60,103 nt of DNA, from positions 1 to 60,103 of the forward strand of contig NZ_LUTR01000020.1 in NCBI RefSeq assembly GCF_001597725.1, read 5' to 3'. The notes beneath the pieces are model-generated. The model ran no database searches, was not told the DNA's origin, and saw only the letters and a list, made by a program, of their open reading frames with translations. Each line of letters starts with the position of its first letter. The stretch's first letter is position 1. This stretch comes from Neptuniibacter marinus. Lineage in GTDB: Bacteria; Pseudomonadota; Gammaproteobacteria; Pseudomonadales; Balneatricaceae. Of this stretch, positions 22,422 to 44,913 are shown piece after piece. Made by a program: the position numbers and the translations under genes.

Positions 22422-22592
22422 ATGTATTTTCATCGCTTACTTATCCTGTTAGTAATTATGCTTTATTTAGTGGTTCCTCTTGTTATTGATAGCTGGCAAA
22501 GCATGGATACACCTTGGTTTTTACCTTATATCATTTGGCTGGCGGTTATTGCCATCGCCTTCCTAATTGATAGGAAACGCTCCGATGTTTAG
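22422..22592 (+). CDS. cbrX: Small membrane protein coupled to cbrA (CbrX-like)
   Basis: A 56-residue frame with two hydrophobic helices (HRLLILLVIMLYLVVPLVI and LPYIIWLAVIAIAFLI) and a basic tail (DRKRSDV). Its last bases (ATGTTTAG) overlap the start of cbrA by eight, and the cbrA ribosome-binding site lies inside it, so translation of the two should be coupled. It begins three bases after the gluQ stop. Pseudomonas has a short frame in exactly this position, which I recall being called cbrX. The name rests on position and size, not on an alignment I could run. Its function is unknown. Confidence 0.75.
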   Translation: MYFHRLLILLVIMLYLVVPLVIDSWQSMDTPWFLPYIIWLAVIAIAFLIDRKRSDV

Positions 22593-25518
22593 TTTGCCCT
22601 CCCTAATATTAATTGGCGTTGCCTACCTATTATTCCTCTTTGGGACCGCTTACCTAACTGAACGAGGAGCTCTACCCAAACAGATCGTCCGCCACCCTTT
22701 AACCCATGTGCTTTCTATTGGTGTTTATGCCAGTGTTTGGACCTTCTATGGTGCCTTCAGCCTAGCCAAGGAATCTGGCTATAACTTTTTTGGATCCTAT
22801 TTTGGCCCAGTACTCACATTCCTATTAGCCCCAGCATTACTTATCCCGATCTTACGCATAACCCGTACTTATCAACTAAGCTCCCTACCCGACCTATTTG
22901 CTTTTAGGTTTAGAAGCGGGGCAATAGGTACTTTAACTGCACTCATATCCGTATTCGCCACGCTGCCCATGCTATCGATTCAGATACAGGCAGTTTCCGA
23001 TACGCTTTATATACTGAACGATCAATTTAGCGCGAATCAGATCAGTATAGGGTTCTGTTTTATTATTGCGCTATTTTCGATTCTATTTGGGGCGAGACAC
23101 GCTTCATTAAGAACCAATCACCACGGTTTGATGGTCGCGATGGCAGTGGAATCCGTCATTAAGCTAAGTGCGTTATTGGTCATAGCAGGCTTCGCCATTT
23201 TTGGCATATTAGGCGGTATAGGTGGTACCGAGAGTTTCATCACAAACCACCCTGAGGTACTAGAACAACTAAAAACCCCCGTTAACAGCGAATCTTGGCG
23301 TACGCTTATATTAGCCTTTTTCACCGCCACGATTGTAATGCCCCACACTTTTCACATGCTGTTTACCGAAAACGCCTCGGATGAAACACTCTACAAAGCC
23401 ACTTGGGCCATGCCCCTTTTCCTACTTTTACTCGCTTGTTCAGTTCCCCCTATCATTTGGGCCGGACAATCCTTAAACGTCGGTGGTGATCCACAATTTA
23501 TTATCCTAAATATAGGACTACTATTAGATTCTTCATGGTTAACCGTTTTAGCTTTTATCGGTGGGCTATCAGCAGCCAGTGGTATTATGATCGTTGCCAC
23601 GGTAGCACTTGCCTCCATGCTACAAAACCATGTGATCTTACCCCTTATACCAAAACCTAAAACATCTCGTTTTTACGCACGTCTACTTTGGCTTAGACGT
23701 ATACTAATCATGGCGATGATATTAGGTAGTTATCTGTTCTACCGTTTAATAGGTAACCACTTCGACCTCCATCAAATGGGAATTGTCGCTATAGTTGCCT
23801 TTCTGCAATTTCTACCGGGGTTACTTGTTACCCTTTTTTGGCAACACGCTAATCGCTGGGGATTACTACTAGGCTTGCTATCAGGTATGGGAATCTGGCT
23901 ATTCAGCATGCTTATCCCCGTATTGAGTGCATCACCTACAGAAACACTACCCTTCAATATTAACGATAGTAATTGGGATCATATTGCGATCCTTTCACTG
24001 TTGGTGAACACAGCGGTTATGAGTATTGTTTCGCTTTTTACTCATCAATCGACGGAGGAATCCCAAGCCGCTCAAGCGTGTTTAATGAATGCACTCCAAA
24101 AAACAAACACAACCAACTTACGAGCCTCCCGTATCAGCGATTTTACGGAGATGCTAGCCTCTAGGCTGGGGCGAAAAGCAGCGGAAAGAGAAGTTCAGCA
24201 AGCCTTAGAGAGTATGAATATCCACCCAGACAGTATTCGTCCGGTTGATCTACTTCGACTACGGGCCATGCTAGAAAACAACCTTTCTGGATTATTAGGC
24301 CCAGTAGAAGCCGCCGCTTTACTCGAACCTATTGACCGTCCAGCTGACCCCATGGGAATCGGTTTCAAAGCCAGTAATGTGCACTTAATTGAAAACCAAT
24401 TAGAAGACTATCAATTACAACTAACCGGCCTTGCCGCTGAACTTGACGAAATGCGACGCTACCACCGTCTAACCCTACAAAAACTACCTATAGGCGTATG
24501 CACTTTAGATACAGAAGGTCAGGTACTGTTTTGGAATCATGAGATGGAGCGTTTAACGCATATACGCAACGAAGAGGTGATCGGCAGCGCTCTAAGTAGT
24601 AACAGCAACCCTTGGAGCCAAGTACTAGAACAGTTCGTAGATGCGCCCATTGCCCACCAGCTAGGGCAAAAGCTTATTATTGACGGACACACGCACTGGT
24701 TTAGCCTACATAAGTCGATTCTTAAAGAACGCAGAGATATTGGCATGGTTATCCTATTGGAAAATGATACAGATACAAAAACCATGCAGGACAAACTGGC
24801 ACACAATGAGCGTTTAGCCTCCATTGGTCGCTTTGCAGCAGGGGTTGCTCACGAAATAGGTAATCCAGTGACTGGCATCGCCTGTTTAGCACAAAACCTT
24901 AAACTTGAAACAGAAAACCCTTACATCCTTGAAACCGGCGATCAAATCGTTGATCAAACCAAACGTATTAGTCGGATAGTACAATCATTAGTCCGATTTG
25001 CTCATGCCGGAAGACCGGAAGCTGATCGTGAACAATTGCCCGTCTCTCTCGCTCAATGCGCAGAAGAAGCAATACATCTCCTATCATTAGATAGCCACGG
25101 CAAACATTTAAAATATATTAATCATATCCCGAATAATTTAAGGGTCATGGGTGATCCACAACAGATGCATCAGGTGTTTGTGAACTTATTACAAAACGCC
25201 AGCGATGCCTCAAAAAACCAAGACACTATATGGCTCGAAGCAGAAGAAACAAACGAAGTTGTAATTTTGCGTGTAACCGATGAAGGCAGCGGTATAACAG
25301 CAGAATCTCAAGACCGGCTCTTTGAACCCTTCTTTACAACAAAAGATCCAGGTCAAGGTACCGGCTTAGGACTATCATTAGTCTATAACATAATCGAAGA
25401 GCATTATGGTAGTATTGAGATACTAAGCCCGGCCAACAAAAAACAGAAGAAAGGCACTCAAGTGGCAATAACGCTCCCGCGTCTGAGATGGACAGAAGAT
25501 CCTGACCGCGCGAGATAG
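22585..25518 (+). CDS. cbrA: Sensor histidine kinase CbrA with SLC5 transporter domain
   Basis: A 977-residue hybrid of a sodium/solute-symporter-like membrane domain (about 12-13 helices, residues 1-~480), a linker, a PAS domain (~630-720, LPIGVCTLDTEGQVLFWNHEMERLT), a HisKA domain with phospho-acceptor His756 (GVAHEIGNPVTG), and an HATPase with N-box VNLLQNASDAS and G-box GTGLGLSLVYNI. This is the architecture of CbrA, the carbon/nitrogen balance sensor of Pseudomonas. The start was moved 18 bases downstream of a TTG because AGGAAA precedes this ATG. It is directly followed by cbrB. Confidence 0.94.
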   Translation: MFSLPSLILIGVAYLLFLFGTAYLTERGALPKQIVRHPLTHVLSIGVYASVWTFYGAFSLAKESGYNFFGSYFGPVLTFLLAPALLIPILRITRTYQLSSLPDLFAFRFRSGAIGTLTALISVFATLPMLSIQIQAVSDTLYILNDQFSANQISIGFCFIIALFSILFGARHASLRTNHHGLMVAMAVESVIKLSALLVIAGFAIFGILGGIGGTESFITNHPEVLEQLKTPVNSESWRTLILAFFTATIVMPHTFHMLFTENASDETLYKATWAMPLFLLLLACSVPPIIWAGQSLNVGGDPQFIILNIGLLLDSSWLTVLAFIGGLSAASGIMIVATVALASMLQNHVILPLIPKPKTSRFYARLLWLRRILIMAMILGSYLFYRLIGNHFDLHQMGIVAIVAFLQFLPGLLVTLFWQHANRWGLLLGLLSGMGIWLFSMLIPVLSASPTETLPFNINDSNWDHIAILSLLVNTAVMSIVSLFTHQSTEESQAAQACLMNALQKTNTTNLRASRISDFTEMLASRLGRKAAEREVQQALESMNIHPDSIRPVDLLRLRAMLENNLSGLLGPVEAAALLEPIDRPADPMGIGFKASNVHLIENQLEDYQLQLTGLAAELDEMRRYHRLTLQKLPIGVCTLDTEGQVLFWNHEMERLTHIRNEEVIGSALSSNSNPWSQVLEQFVDAPIAHQLGQKLIIDGHTHWFSLHKSILKERRDIGMVILLENDTDTKTMQDKLAHNERLASIGRFAAGVAHEIGNPVTGIACLAQNLKLETENPYILETGDQIVDQTKRISRIVQSLVRFAHAGRPEADREQLPVSLAQCAEEAIHLLSLDSHGKHLKYINHIPNNLRVMGDPQQMHQVFVNLLQNASDASKNQDTIWLEAEETNEVVILRVTDEGSGITAESQDRLFEPFFTTKDPGQGTGLGLSLVYNIIEEHYGSIEILSPANKKQKKGTQVAITLPRLRWTEDPDRAR

Positions 25519-25540: not shown

Positions 25541-26926
25541 ATGAGCCGTATTCTGATTGTAGAAGATGAAACAATTATTCGAGCTGCGTTACGCAGGTTA
25601 CTCGAAAAGAACGATTTTAATGTTGATGATGCCGCATCAGTTGATGAAGCAACCAGTCGTTTCAAATTAGACGATTTCAATCTAATCATCAGCGACCTGC
25701 GCCTGCCAGGCGCTCCCGGCACAGACCTTATCTCTTTAGCTAAATCCGTTCCCGTACTCATTATGACCAGCTACGCTAGCCTTCGCTCAGCAGTTGATGC
25801 GATGAAACTCGGCGCAGTAGATTACATTGCAAAGCCATTTGATCATGATGAAATGCTGCACTCTGTAAGAAAAATAATTGAAAACAATATAGCTAACGAA
25901 TCTCAAGCCCCTTTAGTAGAAAGCGATAATGGTTCTACAGATCAAACTCAGATTTTTGGTTCTTGCCCACCTATGCAAGAACTTGCAAAACGCATCACAA
26001 AAGTGGCTCGCACCAATGCAACGGTCCTTATTCAAGGGGAATCGGGAACAGGTAAAGAGCTAGCCGCTCGCTCTATTCATGAACAAAGCACACGTGCCCA
26101 TATACCAATGGTATCGGTTAACTGTGCCGCTATACCTGAAAGCTTAATAGAATCAGAACTTTTTGGTCATGAAAAAGGCGCGTTTACCGGTGCAAATACA
26201 GGTCGCAGTGGACTTTTAGAAGCGGCTGATGGCGGCACATTATTCCTAGATGAGATTGGAGAACTCCCCCTCGAAGCTCAAGCAAGGCTCCTGCGCTTTT
26301 TACAAGAGGGTGAAATTCGCCGCGTCGGCTCAGTCCACTCAAAGAAAGTAGATGTGCGACTTATAGCAGCAACTCATCGAAATTTAAAAGAGCTCGCCAA
26401 GCAAAATAATTTCCGCGAAGATCTCTATTACCGGCTTTATGTAATGGAGTTACGTATCCCACCGTTAAGAGAACGCGGTTCAGATATCCTTGAAATTGCA
26501 GATAAAATGCTTACCAATGCTTGCCAACGAATGAACTCAGCTGAGTCACATTTTTCTCATGAAGCAAGACAAGCTATGCGCACCTATCGTTGGCCAGGTA
26601 ATGTCCGAGAACTAGAAAATGCAATTGAACGTGCTGTAATTCTTGCAGAAGGCACTGTAATTAGTTTAGAAGACTTAGGTCTGGACATACCTAAAACCTC
26701 TTTGGATGAGCTAGAAACTCAGTTTGCAGCAAGAACACAACCCGACCTTTCCTTAAGTACTAAAGAACAATCCAACTTATCCCTTGATGATTACTTCCAA
26801 CGTTTTGTTATAGAAAACCAAGATAAATTGAGTGAAACAGAACTAGCAAAAAAACTAGGGGTGAGTCGAAAGTGTTTATGGGAACGCCGCCAAAAATTAG
26901 GCATTCCTCGTAAAGCACGAAAATAA
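25541..26926 (+). CDS. cbrB: NtrC-family response regulator CbrB
   Basis: A sigma54-dependent activator of 461 residues. The receiver domain has phospho-acceptor Asp52 (IISDLRLPG). The AAA+ domain has Walker A GESGTGKE, the sigma54-contacting EKGAFTGA loop and the [11 protein letters not shown] Walker B region. A Fis-type helix-turn-helix closes the protein ([21 protein letters not shown]). In Pseudomonas CbrB activates the sRNA crcZ immediately downstream. Here a 624-bp gap with a sigma54-type promoter follows in the same place. Confidence 0.95.
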
Positions 26927-26978
26927 ACAAATACATTATAATTCAATTAGATAAAGGTATAACACCTCACCCGCAACG

Positions 26979-27040
26979 GTAACAAAGCAGGTGTTACCTT
27001 ACTACCCACGCAGCATAACTTAGCGTAACAACTAGTAACA
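26979..27040 (+). promoter_or_regulatory. Cluster of CbrB-like half-sites
   Basis: GTAACA occurs at 26979-26984, 27025-27030 and 27035-27040, and TGTTAC at 26992-26997, the half-sites reported for Pseudomonas CbrB (TGTTAC...GTAACA). The cluster is centred about 130-140 bp upstream of the predicted RNA start, a normal distance for an enhancer-type sigma54 activator. The left copies also form part of a larger imperfect inverted repeat (26954-27000) that could instead be a cbrB 3' hairpin. Spacing differs from the published 14-base arrangement. Confidence 0.6.
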
Positions 27041-27113
27041 AAATAAGTACCAAAGTAGATGACGCAATAACAACAAAATAATAACACCATGTTTTAAAAG
27101 GACTTTTAAAAGC

Positions 27114-27129
27114 TGGCATATGTCATGCA
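27114..27129 (+). promoter_or_regulatory. Sigma54-type promoter of CrcZ-like RNA
   Basis: TGGCATATGTCATGCA has the invariant GG (27115-27116) and GC (27127-27128) exactly ten bases apart, as in -24/-12 promoters (consensus TGGCAC-N5-TTGCA). It lies downstream of a gene for a sigma54 activator and of its half-sites. The predicted start is near 27139-27141. Confidence 0.7.
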
Positions 27130-27139
27130 CTCTATTAGT

Positions 27140-27445
27140 TCGAAAACAAAAAGAAGCACGCTTTAAAATCTAGACCACCAATAAAAATAAAAACTGGAAT
27201 TAGAATTTAAAAGCATCCGCCTCGAATAAAAATAATAATGAGGTTTAGTAAAGCTGATCGTAGCGAAGTTGTAACGATCTAGAAGGCTCTTAGAAAAAAT
27301 AACAACAAGCTAAGAAACATATATAGCAGTTGTTACCTGAGATGCGGTCAGCTATTCCATCCCCCTCTTTCCGAATAATAATTGAAACCAGCTAGCACTC
27401 CCATTACACCCTCTATCAATGGTATGATTGCGCACCCGATTTTTT
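27140..27445 (+). ncRNA. Candidate CrcZ-like Hfq/Crc-sequestering sRNA
   Basis: This stretch between cbrB and pcnB has no plausible reading frame but contains five separated A-rich runs of the Hfq/Crc (AANAANAA) type: AAAACAAAAAGAA at ~27143, AATAAAAATAAAAAC at ~27180, AATAAAAATAATAATG at ~27225, AAAAAATAACAACAAG at ~27294 and AATAATAATTG at ~27375. Pseudomonas CrcZ is encoded in the same place, is made from a CbrB-activated sigma54 promoter, and carries several such motifs that titrate Hfq-Crc and lift catabolite repression. The 3' end is uncertain; T6 at 27440-27445 follows only a weak hairpin. The call is inferred from position, promoter and motif content. Confidence 0.65.
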
Positions 27446-27550
27446 ATAAGGGAACGGCTAAAAGGATCATTACCACTTAAAATCCTTCTAAGACACCTAG
27501 CCTACAAACCCTCATACTAGATATTAAATTTGTATTAAATAGGCACTAAA

Positions 27551-28972
27551 TTGCTTAAAACCATTAGCAAAGCGCTGGGTAAAGTATTCCGCGGCAACCC
27601 ACAAACAAAAAATGATGATGGCTCAATGCCGACTTCTGCAATAATAACCGAAGCTAAAAAGCACCGGATAACAGAAGAAGAGCATAAAATTCCCCGTCGA
27701 CTTTTAGATGACAACGCTCTTAAAGTAGCCTATCGCCTGCAGGATGCAGGCTATGACGGTTTACTAGTCGGGGGCTGTATTCGTGATTTATTACTGAATA
27801 AAAAACCTAAAGACTTCGACGTTACAACTAACGCTCACCCAGAAGAAGCGGCTGAGCTATTCCGCCGCGGTCGCCTGATTGGCCGTCGTTTTAAACTTGT
27901 TCATGTCCGTTTTGGTCGTGACTTAATAGAAGTTGCAACCTTTAGAGCGAGCCATGATAGCCAGCCAGAAGATGGCTCCGGTGAACAATGCGATAGCGGA
28001 ATGATCCTGCGTGATAATGTTTATGGCACTATAGAAGATGATGCCCTACGCAGAGATTTTACAGTTAACGCGTTATATTACTGTCCGAAAGACCATTGCG
28101 TATACGATTTCACCAACGGCTTCGAAGATTTACAAAAAGGCGTGCTGCGCATGATCGGCGATCCAGAAGATCGCTATAAAGAAGACCCTGTTCGCATGCT
28201 AAGGGCTGCTCGCTTTGCTGCTAAACTTGATTTCACGATTGATCCCGCATCGGAAAGCCCTATTCGACCTTTAGCGCCCATGCTAAAGCATATAGCTCCG
28301 GCTCGTTTATTTGATGAGACATTAAAGTTATTTCAGTCTGGGCATGCACTTAAATCCTACCAGCAACTTCGACGTCTTGAGCTATTTGAACCTCTTTTCT
28401 CTCAAGTCCAAGTCTTACTGGACGATCCTCAATTAGATGTCCCTATGGAAAGGCTTATTGAGAATGCATTAAAAAATACAGACCGACGCTTAGCACAAAG
28501 AAAAAGTGTAACCCCTGCTTTTCTGTTCGCAGCAATCCTCTGGTATCCCACACAGAAACGTATGCAAAAGTTAATGCGTGAGAAAAAAATGCCTCCACTG
28601 CCCGCTTTGCATGAAGCAGCAAATCAGGTCATTGCGGAACAGGTGCGTTCTACAGCCATTCCTCGCCGCTTTTCGACTCCAATCCGAGAGATCTGGGAGA
28701 TGCAGTTGCGCTTGCCTCGCCGTCAAGGTCATCGCGCTCATCGTCTAATGGAAATGCCAAGATTCAGAGCCGCTTACGACCTACTTCTCCTGCGGGAAAA
28801 TAGCGGGGAACAACTTGATGGGTTAAGTCAATGGTGGACAGATTTCCAAAATGTGAATAGCGAAGCACAAGCCGAAATGCTGAATGGCTTAGATAAAATA
28901 GATAAGCCTCGCCGTACACGCCGAAAAAAAACATATAAACCAAAAAACGAACGCTCAGGCAATGAAAGCTAA
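27551..28972 (+). CDS. pcnB: Poly(A) polymerase I
   Basis: PcnB adds 3' poly(A) tails that speed RNA decay. The nucleotidyltransferase motif is LLVGGCIRDLLLNKKPKDFDV (first ten residues LLVGGCIRDL), with catalytic Asp pair DFDV, then RRFKLVHVRFG, RRDFTVNALYY and EDPVRMLRAARFAAKL. The C terminus is basic (RRTRRKKTYKPK), as in the PcnB group rather than CCA-adding enzymes. The start is TTG with a short AGG eight bases upstream; E. coli pcnB also uses a rare start codon. The 3' end overlaps folK by 11 bases. Confidence 0.95.
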   Translation: MLKTISKALGKVFRGNPQTKNDDGSMPTSAIITEAKKHRITEEEHKIPRRLLDDNALKVAYRLQDAGYDGLLVGGCIRDLLLNKKPKDFDVTTNAHPEEAAELFRRGRLIGRRFKLVHVRFGRDLIEVATFRASHDSQPEDGSGEQCDSGMILRDNVYGTIEDDALRRDFTVNALYYCPKDHCVYDFTNGFEDLQKGVLRMIGDPEDRYKEDPVRMLRAARFAAKLDFTIDPASESPIRPLAPMLKHIAPARLFDETLKLFQSGHALKSYQQLRRLELFEPLFSQVQVLLDDPQLDVPMERLIENALKNTDRRLAQRKSVTPAFLFAAILWYPTQKRMQKLMREKKMPPLPALHEAANQVIAEQVRSTAIPRRFSTPIREIWEMQLRLPRRQGHRAHRLMEMPRFRAAYDLLLLRENSGEQLDGLSQWWTDFQNVNSEAQAEMLNGLDKIDKPRRTRRKKTYKPKNERSGNES

Positions 28973-40532: not shown

Positions 40533-40802
40533 TTAGCGACGTAGACCAAGACGTTTGATCAAGTCTAGGTAACGATCTGCATCTTTACCTTTTAAGTAAT
40601 CCAGCAATTTACGACGCTGGTTTACCATGCGGATTAGACCACGACGTGAGTGATGGTCATGTTTGTTCACTTTGAAGTGACCCTGTAAACCTTCGATGTT
40701 AGCAGTTAGCAAAGCTACCTGAACTTCTGGGGAACCAGTATCGCCTTCAGCGCGAGCGAAATCTGCAACGATTGCCGCTTTATTTTCAGCAGTTAATGCC
40801 AT
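40533..40802 (-). CDS. rpsO: 30S ribosomal protein S15
   Basis: S15 binds the central domain of 16S rRNA and nucleates the platform. The 89-residue form beginning MALTAENK matches the universal length; [24 protein letters not shown] is the family core (for example DHHSRRGL). The second of two in-frame ATGs was chosen because TAGGAGA then lies six bases upstream, whereas it abuts the first. Confidence 0.97.
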
Positions 40803-40942
40803 TTTCATTCTCCTAAAAAAATATGCACACGACTATTATTAGTCGCTGGATTTGAAAGAAACGATGCACCGAGCATATTTTCAGTACAACGCCACATTAT
40901 TTAGGCCTCTTTAGACACCTAAAAAATTCTATTTAATCAGTA

Positions 40943-42348: not shown

Positions 42349-44913
42349 TTAAAGTGTACGTTGAACTTCGACTGTGTCGAAGACCTCAATCTGGTCTCCT
42401 ACTTTAACGTCGTTATAGTTCTTAACGCCGATACCACATTCCATACCCTGACGAACTTCGTTTACGTTATCTTTAAAGCGACGTAGAGATTCTAATTCGC
42501 CCTCATAGATAACCACGTTGTCACGCAGTACACGGATACGCTTGTTACGGAAAACTGTACCTTCAGTAACCATACAACCAGCCACAAGACCAATCTTAGG
42601 TGCTTTAAATACATCACGTACTTCAGCAATACCAACGATCTCTTCACGGTATTCAGGAGAAAGAAGACCACCCATCGCCTGCTTAACGTCATCGATAATA
42701 TCGTAGATTACGCTGTAGTAACGAAGTTCGATGCCTTCACGTTCCATTACCTGACGAGCCTGCTGATCAGCACGGACGTTGAAACCAACCATCAATGCAG
42801 ATGCTGTAACCGCAAGGTTAGCATCAGTCTCAGCAATACCACCAACACCGCCAGAAACAATATTCACTTTTACTTCATCGGTAGATAGATCTTCCAATGC
42901 GTGAGTTAGTGCTTCCAATGAACCACGTACGTCTGTTTTAAGGACAATATTGAAGGTTTTAACATCACCGGCTTGCATGTTAGCAAACAAGTTTTCTAGT
43001 TTAGATTTCTGCTGACGGGCCAATTTCACATCACGGTATTTACCTTGACGGAACAAAGCAATTTCTCGTGCTTTTTTCTCGCTACTAACAACAGTGAATT
43101 CATCACCGGCATTAGGCGTACCATCTAGGCCTTGAATCTCAACCGGGATAGCAGGACCTGCACCCTGAATAGGCTTACCATTTTCATCCAGCATCGCACG
43201 AATACGACCATAATGTAGACCGGCAAGAACGATATCACCTTTTTCCAAGGTTCCGTTTTGAATCAGTACAGTTGCAACAGGGCCACGGCCTTTATCAAGA
43301 CGAGATTCAACAACTACACCTTGTGCTGGTGCCTTAGGCACTGCAGTTAGCTCAAGAATTTCAGATTGCAGCAATACTGCATCTAATAATTCATCAATGC
43401 CTTGGCCTGTTTTAGCCGATACACTTACAAACTGATTTTCACCACCCCACTCTTCAGGGATAACATCTAGTGCTGCAAGTTCATTTTTAACACGATCAGG
43501 ATCAGCTTGCTCTTTATCAATCTTGTTGACCGCAACAACGAGAGGTACACCCGCAGCTTTAGCATGCTGTACCGCTTCTTCAGTCTGAGGCATTACACCA
43601 TCATCAGCGGCAACAACAAGTATAACGATATCAGTTACAGAAGCACCGCGCGCACGCATCGCTGTAAAAGCAGCATGCCCAGGTGTATCCAAGAAAGTAA
43701 CCATGCCATTATCTGTTTCTACGTGATAAGCACCAATGTGCTGCGTAATACCACCGGACTCACCGGAAGCTACGCGTGATGAACGTATATAGTCCAACAA
43801 TGATGTTTTACCATGGTCAACATGACCCATAACAGTAACAACCGGTGCGCGACTTTCCTGCTCACCCTGCATTGCTTGAATACTTTCCATCAACGCTTCT
43901 TCAACCGCATTCTCTTGAAGTGCGATTGGCGTATGACCCATCTCTTCTACAACAAGCATGCCTGTTTCTTGATCAATCACTTGGTTAATAGTCGCCATAG
44001 CGCCCATACCAAACATAACCTTGATCACTTCTGCTGCTTTAACGTTCATTTTCTTCGCTAATTCTGCAACAGTAATACTTTCAGGAATAGTTACATCAAT
44101 TACTTGCTGGGTTGTTGGCTCTTTAAAGCCATGTTCGTTTGGCTTATTAGAAAGAGGACGACCATTTTTGCCGCGATTACGGCTAATCTTGCCACCACGA
44201 CGGTTATCATTACGATTATCACCGCGGTTATTTTTACCTTTACCTCGACGATTATTATCTTTTGACGCTGGATCTTTTTTCTTAGCTTGTTCTTGCGCTT
44301 TAAAACGTGCTTCAGATTCCGCTTCAGCCTTACGGCGACGAGCTTCTTCTTCCTCTTCACGTTTCAAACGAGCCGCTTCTTCAGCTTCTTTCTGCTTGCG
44401 CTGAACATCAACTTCTTCTTGCTCTCGGCTCTGTTCTTGCTTAGCTTCACGTTTTTTAGCTGCTTCTGCTTCAGCCGCTTCGCGAGCAGCTTGTTCTTTC
44501 GCTTCCTGCTGCTTACGCTCTTCTTCTAAACGCAACTCTTCAGCTTTCTGAGCTTCTAATGCCGCTTCGTCAACTGTTTCAGTTGGTTCATCACCACCTT
44601 CAACTTCTGAACGTTTAACATAGGTACGCTTTTTACGCACTTCTACATTAACGGTTTTCTTCTTACCCGATGAACCTGACACTTTAAGCTGAGATGTAGT
44701 TTTACGCTTTAAAGTAATTTTCTTTGGTTCACCATCTGCTGCATCTTCACCGTGACTACGCTTAAGATGATTCAGCAATGTTTGGCGCTCTGATTCAGAG
44801 ACTTCAGCGCCATCATTCTTACCAGATATACCTGCTTCCTTCATTTGCTCGAGCAAACGATCAACGGAAACACCAACCATTTCGGCGAGTTGTTTTACTG
44901 TTACTTCGGCCAT
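42349..44913 (-). CDS. infB: Translation initiation factor IF-2
   Basis: IF-2 is the GTPase that places fMet-tRNA in the P site. The N-terminal IF2_N motif ([15 protein letters not shown]) is followed by a long charged Glu/Ala/Lys/Arg-rich linker (residues ~100-270) and a second IF2_N near 285. The G domain has [14 protein letters not shown], the DTPGHAAF switch and [10 protein letters not shown], then the fMet-tRNA-binding C-terminal domains. The start was set at ATG six bases inside a TTG frame; GGAG lies upstream. The repetitive linker creates long spurious frames on other strands. Confidence 0.98.

Follow-up and report, generated by a model that had tools for sequence, protein, structure and literature searches.

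The window (the whole stretch of DNA analysed, 60,103 nucleotides from Neptuniibacter marinus) carries the gene order cbrA-cbrB-X-pcnB, in which X, the candidate RNA, lies 3' of cbrB. Unless another strand is named, all features are on the forward (+) strand. The cbrA gene (22567-25518) was recognised by similarity and Pfam as encoding a sensor kinase with a long N-terminal part and PAS, HisKA and HATPase domains. Its product was 48% identical to CbrA of Pseudomonas fildesensis over residues 6-972 and gave the same main Pfam hits, and a symporter domain was absent from both the window CbrA and the Pseudomonas control CbrA (Pfam, E ≤ 1). The cbrB gene (25541-26926) encodes a sigma54-type response regulator, 65% identical to P. 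fildesensis CbrB, with an intact GAFTGA motif. Genes for a histidine kinase and an NtrC-class regulator thus precede the gap, and NCBIfam labelled those downstream of it as pcnB (poly(A) polymerase, 27551-28972) and folK. With full-length similarity for CbrA, and with receiver domain, AAA+ domain and GAFTGA in CbrB, the upstream pair is classed by its sequence as CbrAB.

The stop codon of cbrB ends at 26926 and pcnB starts with TTG at 27551, which leaves a spacer of 624 bp. The initial annotation had described a gap of this size without a gene, and we agree, the largest ORF having 59 aa (ORFs of at least 20 aa overlapping 26930-27545). Towards pcnB, TATGAT at 27423-27428, which appears as TAT[GC]AT in the genus alignment, is a possible -10 element of a separate pcnB promoter; a consensus promoter scan did not report it.

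Promoter, CbrB-type boxes and predicted RNA

A sigma54-type promoter of the form GG-N10-GC had been proposed for the gap, and TGGCATATGTCATGCA indeed matches at 27114-27129. From its sequence and conservation this element, TGGCAT-N6-TGCA, is a predicted sigma54 promoter, although the motif is weak by itself, with 78 TGGCA-N7-TGCW matches across the genome and 31 for the reversed pattern. Upstream of it we found four CbrB-type boxes (GTAACA or TGTTAC) that the initial annotation did not contain. A reverse-type GTAACA subsite lies at 26979-26984 (-135 from the promoter start), a forward-type TGTTAC subsite at 26992-26997 (-122, a position common to many relatives), and two further GTAACA boxes at 27025-27030 (-89, a position common within the genus) and 27035-27040 (-79, common to many relatives). 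In P. putida the CbrB subsite reads TGTTAC, and the available text of that study describes one forward and two reverse subsites with neighbours 20-25 bp apart (PMC6296734). In the window, distances of 33 and 43 bp separate the exact GTAACA boxes at -89 and -79 from the forward one, as against the 20-25 bp neighbour spacing in P. putida. The spacing of 43 bp is compatible with an absent middle subsite, and many relatives also carry GTAACA near -101. Across the loci compared, TGTTAC started at -125 to -120 in 46 of 100 hits (36/89 outside the genus) and GTAACA at -82 to -78 in 52 of 152 (42/114 outside the genus), with more peaks near -89 and -101. When the own genome was scanned with the combined box-promoter pattern, the cbrB-pcnB locus was the sole match and no second copy appeared; the pattern alone is weak, because its reversed control matched four times in the same genome.

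The conserved core of the predicted CrcZ-like RNA spans 27140-27354, its start being set 12 nt after the C of the -12 element and its extent taken from the promoter position and the alignments. The end at 27445 given in the initial annotation was arbitrary, as conservation within the genus fades past about 27354. The five A-rich runs claimed downstream of the promoter were confirmed: five AANAANAA were counted against a mean of 1.17 in 2000 dinucleotide shuffles (p 0.0005), and three runs had at least five A-R-N triplets, where 0.18 were expected from such shuffles. Run 1 (27145-27155, four ARN) begins some 6 nt into the predicted RNA. Two or three base pairs close the loop that holds run 2 (27180-27193, five ARN), within a larger predicted stem at 27160-27214. 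Runs 3 (27225-27238) and 4 (27295-27308) are both placed in hairpin loops, and only the closest relative shares the short run 5 (27374-27381). One other A-R-N cluster, the only one found in the 60-kb window, was located at 44200-44720 (-) and was rejected as a Lys/Glu-rich coding part, read as infB (initiation factor IF2).

By fold and alignment, run 3 is displayed by a hairpin with the stem GCCTC/GAGGT (27219-27244) and run 4 by one with TCTTAG/CTAAGA (27288-27315), and both hairpins were found in all ten genus members (10/10). In the predicted fold the latter belongs to a 3' domain at 27252-27353, closed by AGCTGATCGTA and TGCGGTCAGCT. The consensus fold of 13 RNAs from the window's family had 36 pairs, of which 14 were changed on both sides, a count that is flattered because the consensus structure came from the same alignment; shuffled alignments gave a mean of 5.5 (none of 500 as high) and slid versions gave 2-9. 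Most of these changes fell in the longer helices, with 1, 1 and 2 in the stems closing the loops of runs 2, 3 and 4. The single-sequence fold of 27140-27445 was not unusually stable (z -1.08, 16 of 100 shuffles equally good).

Hairpin display was also assessed in 69 loci, comprising one per genus in f1 (families of the sample are numbered) and every promoter-bearing locus elsewhere. The flanks of 98 out of 280 runs scored at least 11 for pairing, against a mean of 37.6 and a highest value of 54 in 500 reshuffles of the flanks. Compared with random non-motif places in the same RNAs the figures were 35.0% vs 25.7%, and 24.3% vs 9.4% with a stricter score; with this small margin, display of the runs is clear only at the stricter score and in some families. 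Many families of the 69-locus set showed none.

Comparison across the order

The window CbrB, used as query, matched in 34 of 38 close genomes (E ≤ 1e-100) and in 160 of 194 genomes of the order (E ≤ 1e-120), the own genome included. We took 95 downstream regions, namely 30 of the 34 close matches, 60 picked by hand among the order matches listed (one to three per family) and five from named genomes, using up to 900 nt where pcnB was not found. One locus (L172) was dropped at a contig end, and the remaining 94, which are not independent because 21 come from the window's family and 10 of those from its genus, represent 41 numbered families and, in addition, the five named genomes; f27 and f39 were left out.

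Conservation of the promoter and of the A-rich runs in relatives had been named as a check in the initial annotation, and both were conserved. TGGCAY-N6-YGC was present on the sense strand in 78/94 loci and on the antisense strand in 0/94; outside the genus of the window the promoter occurred in 68/84 loci, and the looser TGGCA-N7-TGC matched the antisense strand once in 94. The full signature, defined as the promoter together with one or more boxes within 200 nt and two or more AANAAYAA runs within 400 nt, was found in 74/94 loci and in 35 of the 41 numbered families, compared with 0/94 on the antisense strand and 1/1880 in mononucleotide shuffles. The first strict run began 26-34 nt past the promoter start in 56 of the 88 promoter instances that had one (89 in total), which puts it close to the 5' end predicted for the RNA; the Pseudomonas control shows this placement too. 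The same layout was seen in P. fildesensis, the positive control, and in Gilvimarinus gilvus and Dasania sp., whose genera belong to Cellvibrionales in the NCBI taxonomy.

The full signature was missing from families f8, f10, f13, f18, f42 and f43 and from two of the five named loci (L068 and L069). The promoter and boxes were present in f13 with one strict run, and in f42 the similarity to pcnB begins 148 bp past cbrB, leaving little room. In the named genomes five of the 80 loci listed resembled CbrB (60-65% identity), and among the other 75 listed, none of the seven tested was followed by pcnB. In one genus of the window's family (L019) the similarity to pcnB starts after 303 nt; this spacer had no promoter, boxes or strict runs, and its CbrB kept GAFTGA.

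Two promoter matches were present in the region of eleven loci. In the examples from Dasania, f1, f6, f38 and f47 each match had its own boxes or runs, and in other double-match loci the second match may be due to chance. Two successive sigma54 promoters with runs 3' of cbrB were seen in L015, L017, L033, L071, L153, L186, L199 and L200, an arrangement that suggests tandem RNA copies. Among the 229 genomes of a further search, 18 outside the order had CbrB-like proteins (E ≤ 1e-140), and the promoter was found in 0/9 of the loci examined there. These nine (L219-L221 and L223-L228, CbrB-like at 58-62% identity) had no pcnB next to the gene in the stretch covered and no CrcZ-like promoter.

It had been anticipated that sequence-based RNA families may miss the element, and the Rfam CrcZ model (RF01675) does fail at the locus: its best score in the gap was 10.4 bits, with a cut-off of 95. 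No RF01675 match was obtained at E ≤ 0.001 in the own genome, nor in the seven members of the window's family among the 194 genomes sampled. The model passed its cut-off in 9 of the 194 genomes, all of them from f21 or f2; from scores above 300 bits, f21 is probably Pseudomonadaceae. Matches at E ≤ 0.001 were present in 41/194 genomes, under stricter filters by which some weak matches were lost, and several sub-threshold matches, such as those in f35 and f20, lay just 3' of cbrB. Three f8 genomes had sub-threshold CrcZ matches (45-49 bits) far from cbrB, at G031:C154:54748-54996, G183:C54:17387-17598 and G204:C1:6775215-6775451, so in this family the RNA may have moved. In the window, an Rfam match above cut-off was given by a ribosomal S15 leader at 40746-40863 (-).

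Crc, Hfq and the reading of the element

The own genome encodes Crc, Hfq and RpoN. Absence of crc had been named as a point against a CrcZ-like RNA; the gene is present, between ORFs that we read as rph-like and pyrE-like. Its product shares 119 of 254 residues with Crc of P. aeruginosa and keeps R138, K139, R140, E142, W161 and R229. Lysine replaces R196 and R230, glutamine replaces E193, threonine replaces K155 and valine replaces M156. The RKRRE block is conserved, and the available text of PMC6422490 assigns roles to these residues and describes this block as contacting RNA. Among the 194 genomes CbrB and Crc occurred together in 140, CbrB only in 20, Crc only in 12 and neither in 22 (CbrB E ≤ 1e-120, Crc E ≤ 1e-50; thresholds or contig ends may account for part of the absences), an association with a Fisher p of 1.2e-9 when kinship is ignored. 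For 73 loci of the order sample, 52 had the signature and Crc, 4 the signature only, 13 Crc only (one of these, L027, is cut by a contig end) and 4 neither, and at this level the association is not strong by itself. Possible targets were approximated crudely by counting A-rich runs that closely precede an ATG in the own genome. These were hardly enriched (263 vs 227 for the reversed pattern), and in six of the 30 such loci listed the ATG opened an ORF of 80 aa or more.

From the features computed here (gene order, the sequences of promoter and boxes, the excess of A-rich runs, conservation, covariation and the presence of crc, hfq and rpoN) we infer transcription, CbrB binding, Hfq/Crc binding and a response to carbon. 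With promoter and runs conserved and crc present, the comparison supports the functional CrcZ equivalent that had been proposed. It is very likely, in our judgement, that the gap encodes a small RNA of about 215-300 nt that works like CrcZ, without being a member of RF01675 as defined. The points that tell against this reading are the failure of the Rfam model, the ordinary stability of the window fold, the scant enrichment before ATG, the search for an intrinsic terminator that found none, the loci at which signature and Crc do not coincide, and the box spacing, which lowered our confidence slightly. Binding of ARN runs by Hfq and its titration by CrcZ are described in the available text of three studies (PMC9890229, PMC4063720, PMC6422490). 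On exhaustion of the preferred carbon source, CbrA/CbrB would activate sigma54 RNA polymerase at 27114-27129, with CbrB acting through the boxes at -135 to -79. The RNA would then titrate Hfq and Crc off catabolic mRNAs, and this would relieve catabolite repression.

The candidate resembles CrcZ of Pseudomonas and Azotobacter in its place between cbrB and pcnB, its sigma54 promoter and its CbrB-type boxes, and in having several A-rich motifs of the Hfq-binding type (here predicted from sequence), the first of them near the 5' end. It differs in its core of about 215 nt, compared with about 400 nt, and in two runs set in hairpin loops that are kept by the family. Decoys of the CsrB/RsmZ type also carry repeated protein-binding motifs in hairpin loops and titrate a translational repressor, but their motifs are GGA for CsrA/RsmA, whereas those seen here are of the A-rich Hfq/Crc type. 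CrcY and CrcX are encoded away from cbrB. In the available text of PMC8871633 they are additional decoy RNAs related to CbrB and of the CrcZ type, to which the candidate would also belong; in the own genome the box-promoter pattern gave no second copy of the candidate, and tandem copies are present in some relatives.

We think it unlikely that Crc plays no part and that the RNA acts as a sponge only for Hfq, or for some other protein that binds A-rich sequence. In favour of this, four of the 56 signature loci in the order sample are in genomes without a Crc hit (E ≤ 1e-50), no Crc was detected in f43, where boxes and runs persist, and according to the available text of PMC4063720 it is Hfq itself that binds the A-rich stretches in P. 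aeruginosa. Against this, Crc is encoded in the own genome with its RKRRE block conserved, and it co-occurs with CbrB. The sigma54 transcript could also be a long A-rich 5' leader of the pcnB mRNA, which would put poly(A) polymerase under the control of CbrB and Hfq and leave no free decoy. The same-strand position of pcnB downstream in 78/94 loci is in line with a leader, and no intrinsic terminator was found in the cbrB-pcnB gap, which makes read-through into pcnB possible. We consider such a leader quite improbable, given that several genomes carry two tandem sets of promoter, boxes and runs before pcnB, that the three f8 genomes have their sub-threshold CrcZ matches away from cbrB, that the TAT[GC]AT element near pcnB is kept in the genus and that Pseudomonas crcZ is a separate transcription unit in the available text of PMC8871633.

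Still less probable is a decaying relic in the window species. It is true that nine of nine other genus members have TGGCAC where the window has TGGCAT, but the TGGCAT form also occurs at loci in other families and the genus retains the hairpins of runs 3 and 4 throughout. Run 1 fails the stricter AANAAYAA form in the window and likewise across the genus, which is not decay of one species. That the runs, simple as they are, reflect chance A-richness of an AT-rich spacer can practically be dismissed in view of the dinucleotide shuffles, the conservation across families and the covariation.

CbrB, sigma54 and proposed carbon control in the order

In five of five genomes of family f43 (L213-L217) the GAFTGA motif of CbrB was deleted (three) or altered (two), whereas G[AS]FTGA was kept in 35/35 other CbrB proteins compared. 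The f43 spacers (L193-L195) kept boxes and three or four strict runs, and the sigma54 promoter was missing in 3/3. RpoN was encoded in 4/4 f43 genomes tested, and Crc was not detected in any of the six CbrB-bearing f43 genomes of the sample (E ≤ 1e-50). The joint loss of GAFTGA and promoter fits with CbrB acting via sigma54 at this promoter in the other families.

In the available text of the literature, CbrAB is confined to Pseudomonas and Azotobacter (PMC8871633, PMC6296734), and the order cbrA-cbrB-crcZ is likewise restricted to these two genera (PMC8871633). Crc-based repression outside Pseudomonadaceae is described for Acinetobacter in the text available from PMC8312277; that of PMC6456745 cites Crc repression in Acinetobacter baylyi and gives the RNAs for Pseudomonas only. 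Transcripts of cbrA and cbrB are reported from seawater communities in the available part of PMC5073097. In open-access titles and abstracts, a scope that leaves out most subscription journals, we recognised no description of CrcZ outside Pseudomonadaceae. As far as these searches go, the presence and conservation of the RNA outside Pseudomonadaceae and the hairpin display in the window's family are new.

Taken jointly, three propositions appear probable to us. The CbrB-sigma54-CrcZ switch would be an ancient, order-wide module of carbon control and not an invention of Pseudomonadaceae. The body of the RNA would have been turned over beyond recognition, with selection keeping the promoter geometry and the A-rich runs, the latter loop-set in some families. 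In f43, where CbrB has lost the motif that contacts sigma54, the decoy RNA would be produced by some other form of transcription. This GAFTGA-less family offers a natural experiment on how the RNA is turned on. The set of loci provides a large comparative sample of what an Hfq/Crc decoy must contain. If the reading is true, catabolite control by Crc and Hfq with an RNA switch runs in many further families of Gammaproteobacteria in which the RNA escapes Rfam, and in the bacterium of the window the decoy RNA would soak up the proteins that silence the use of second-choice foods.
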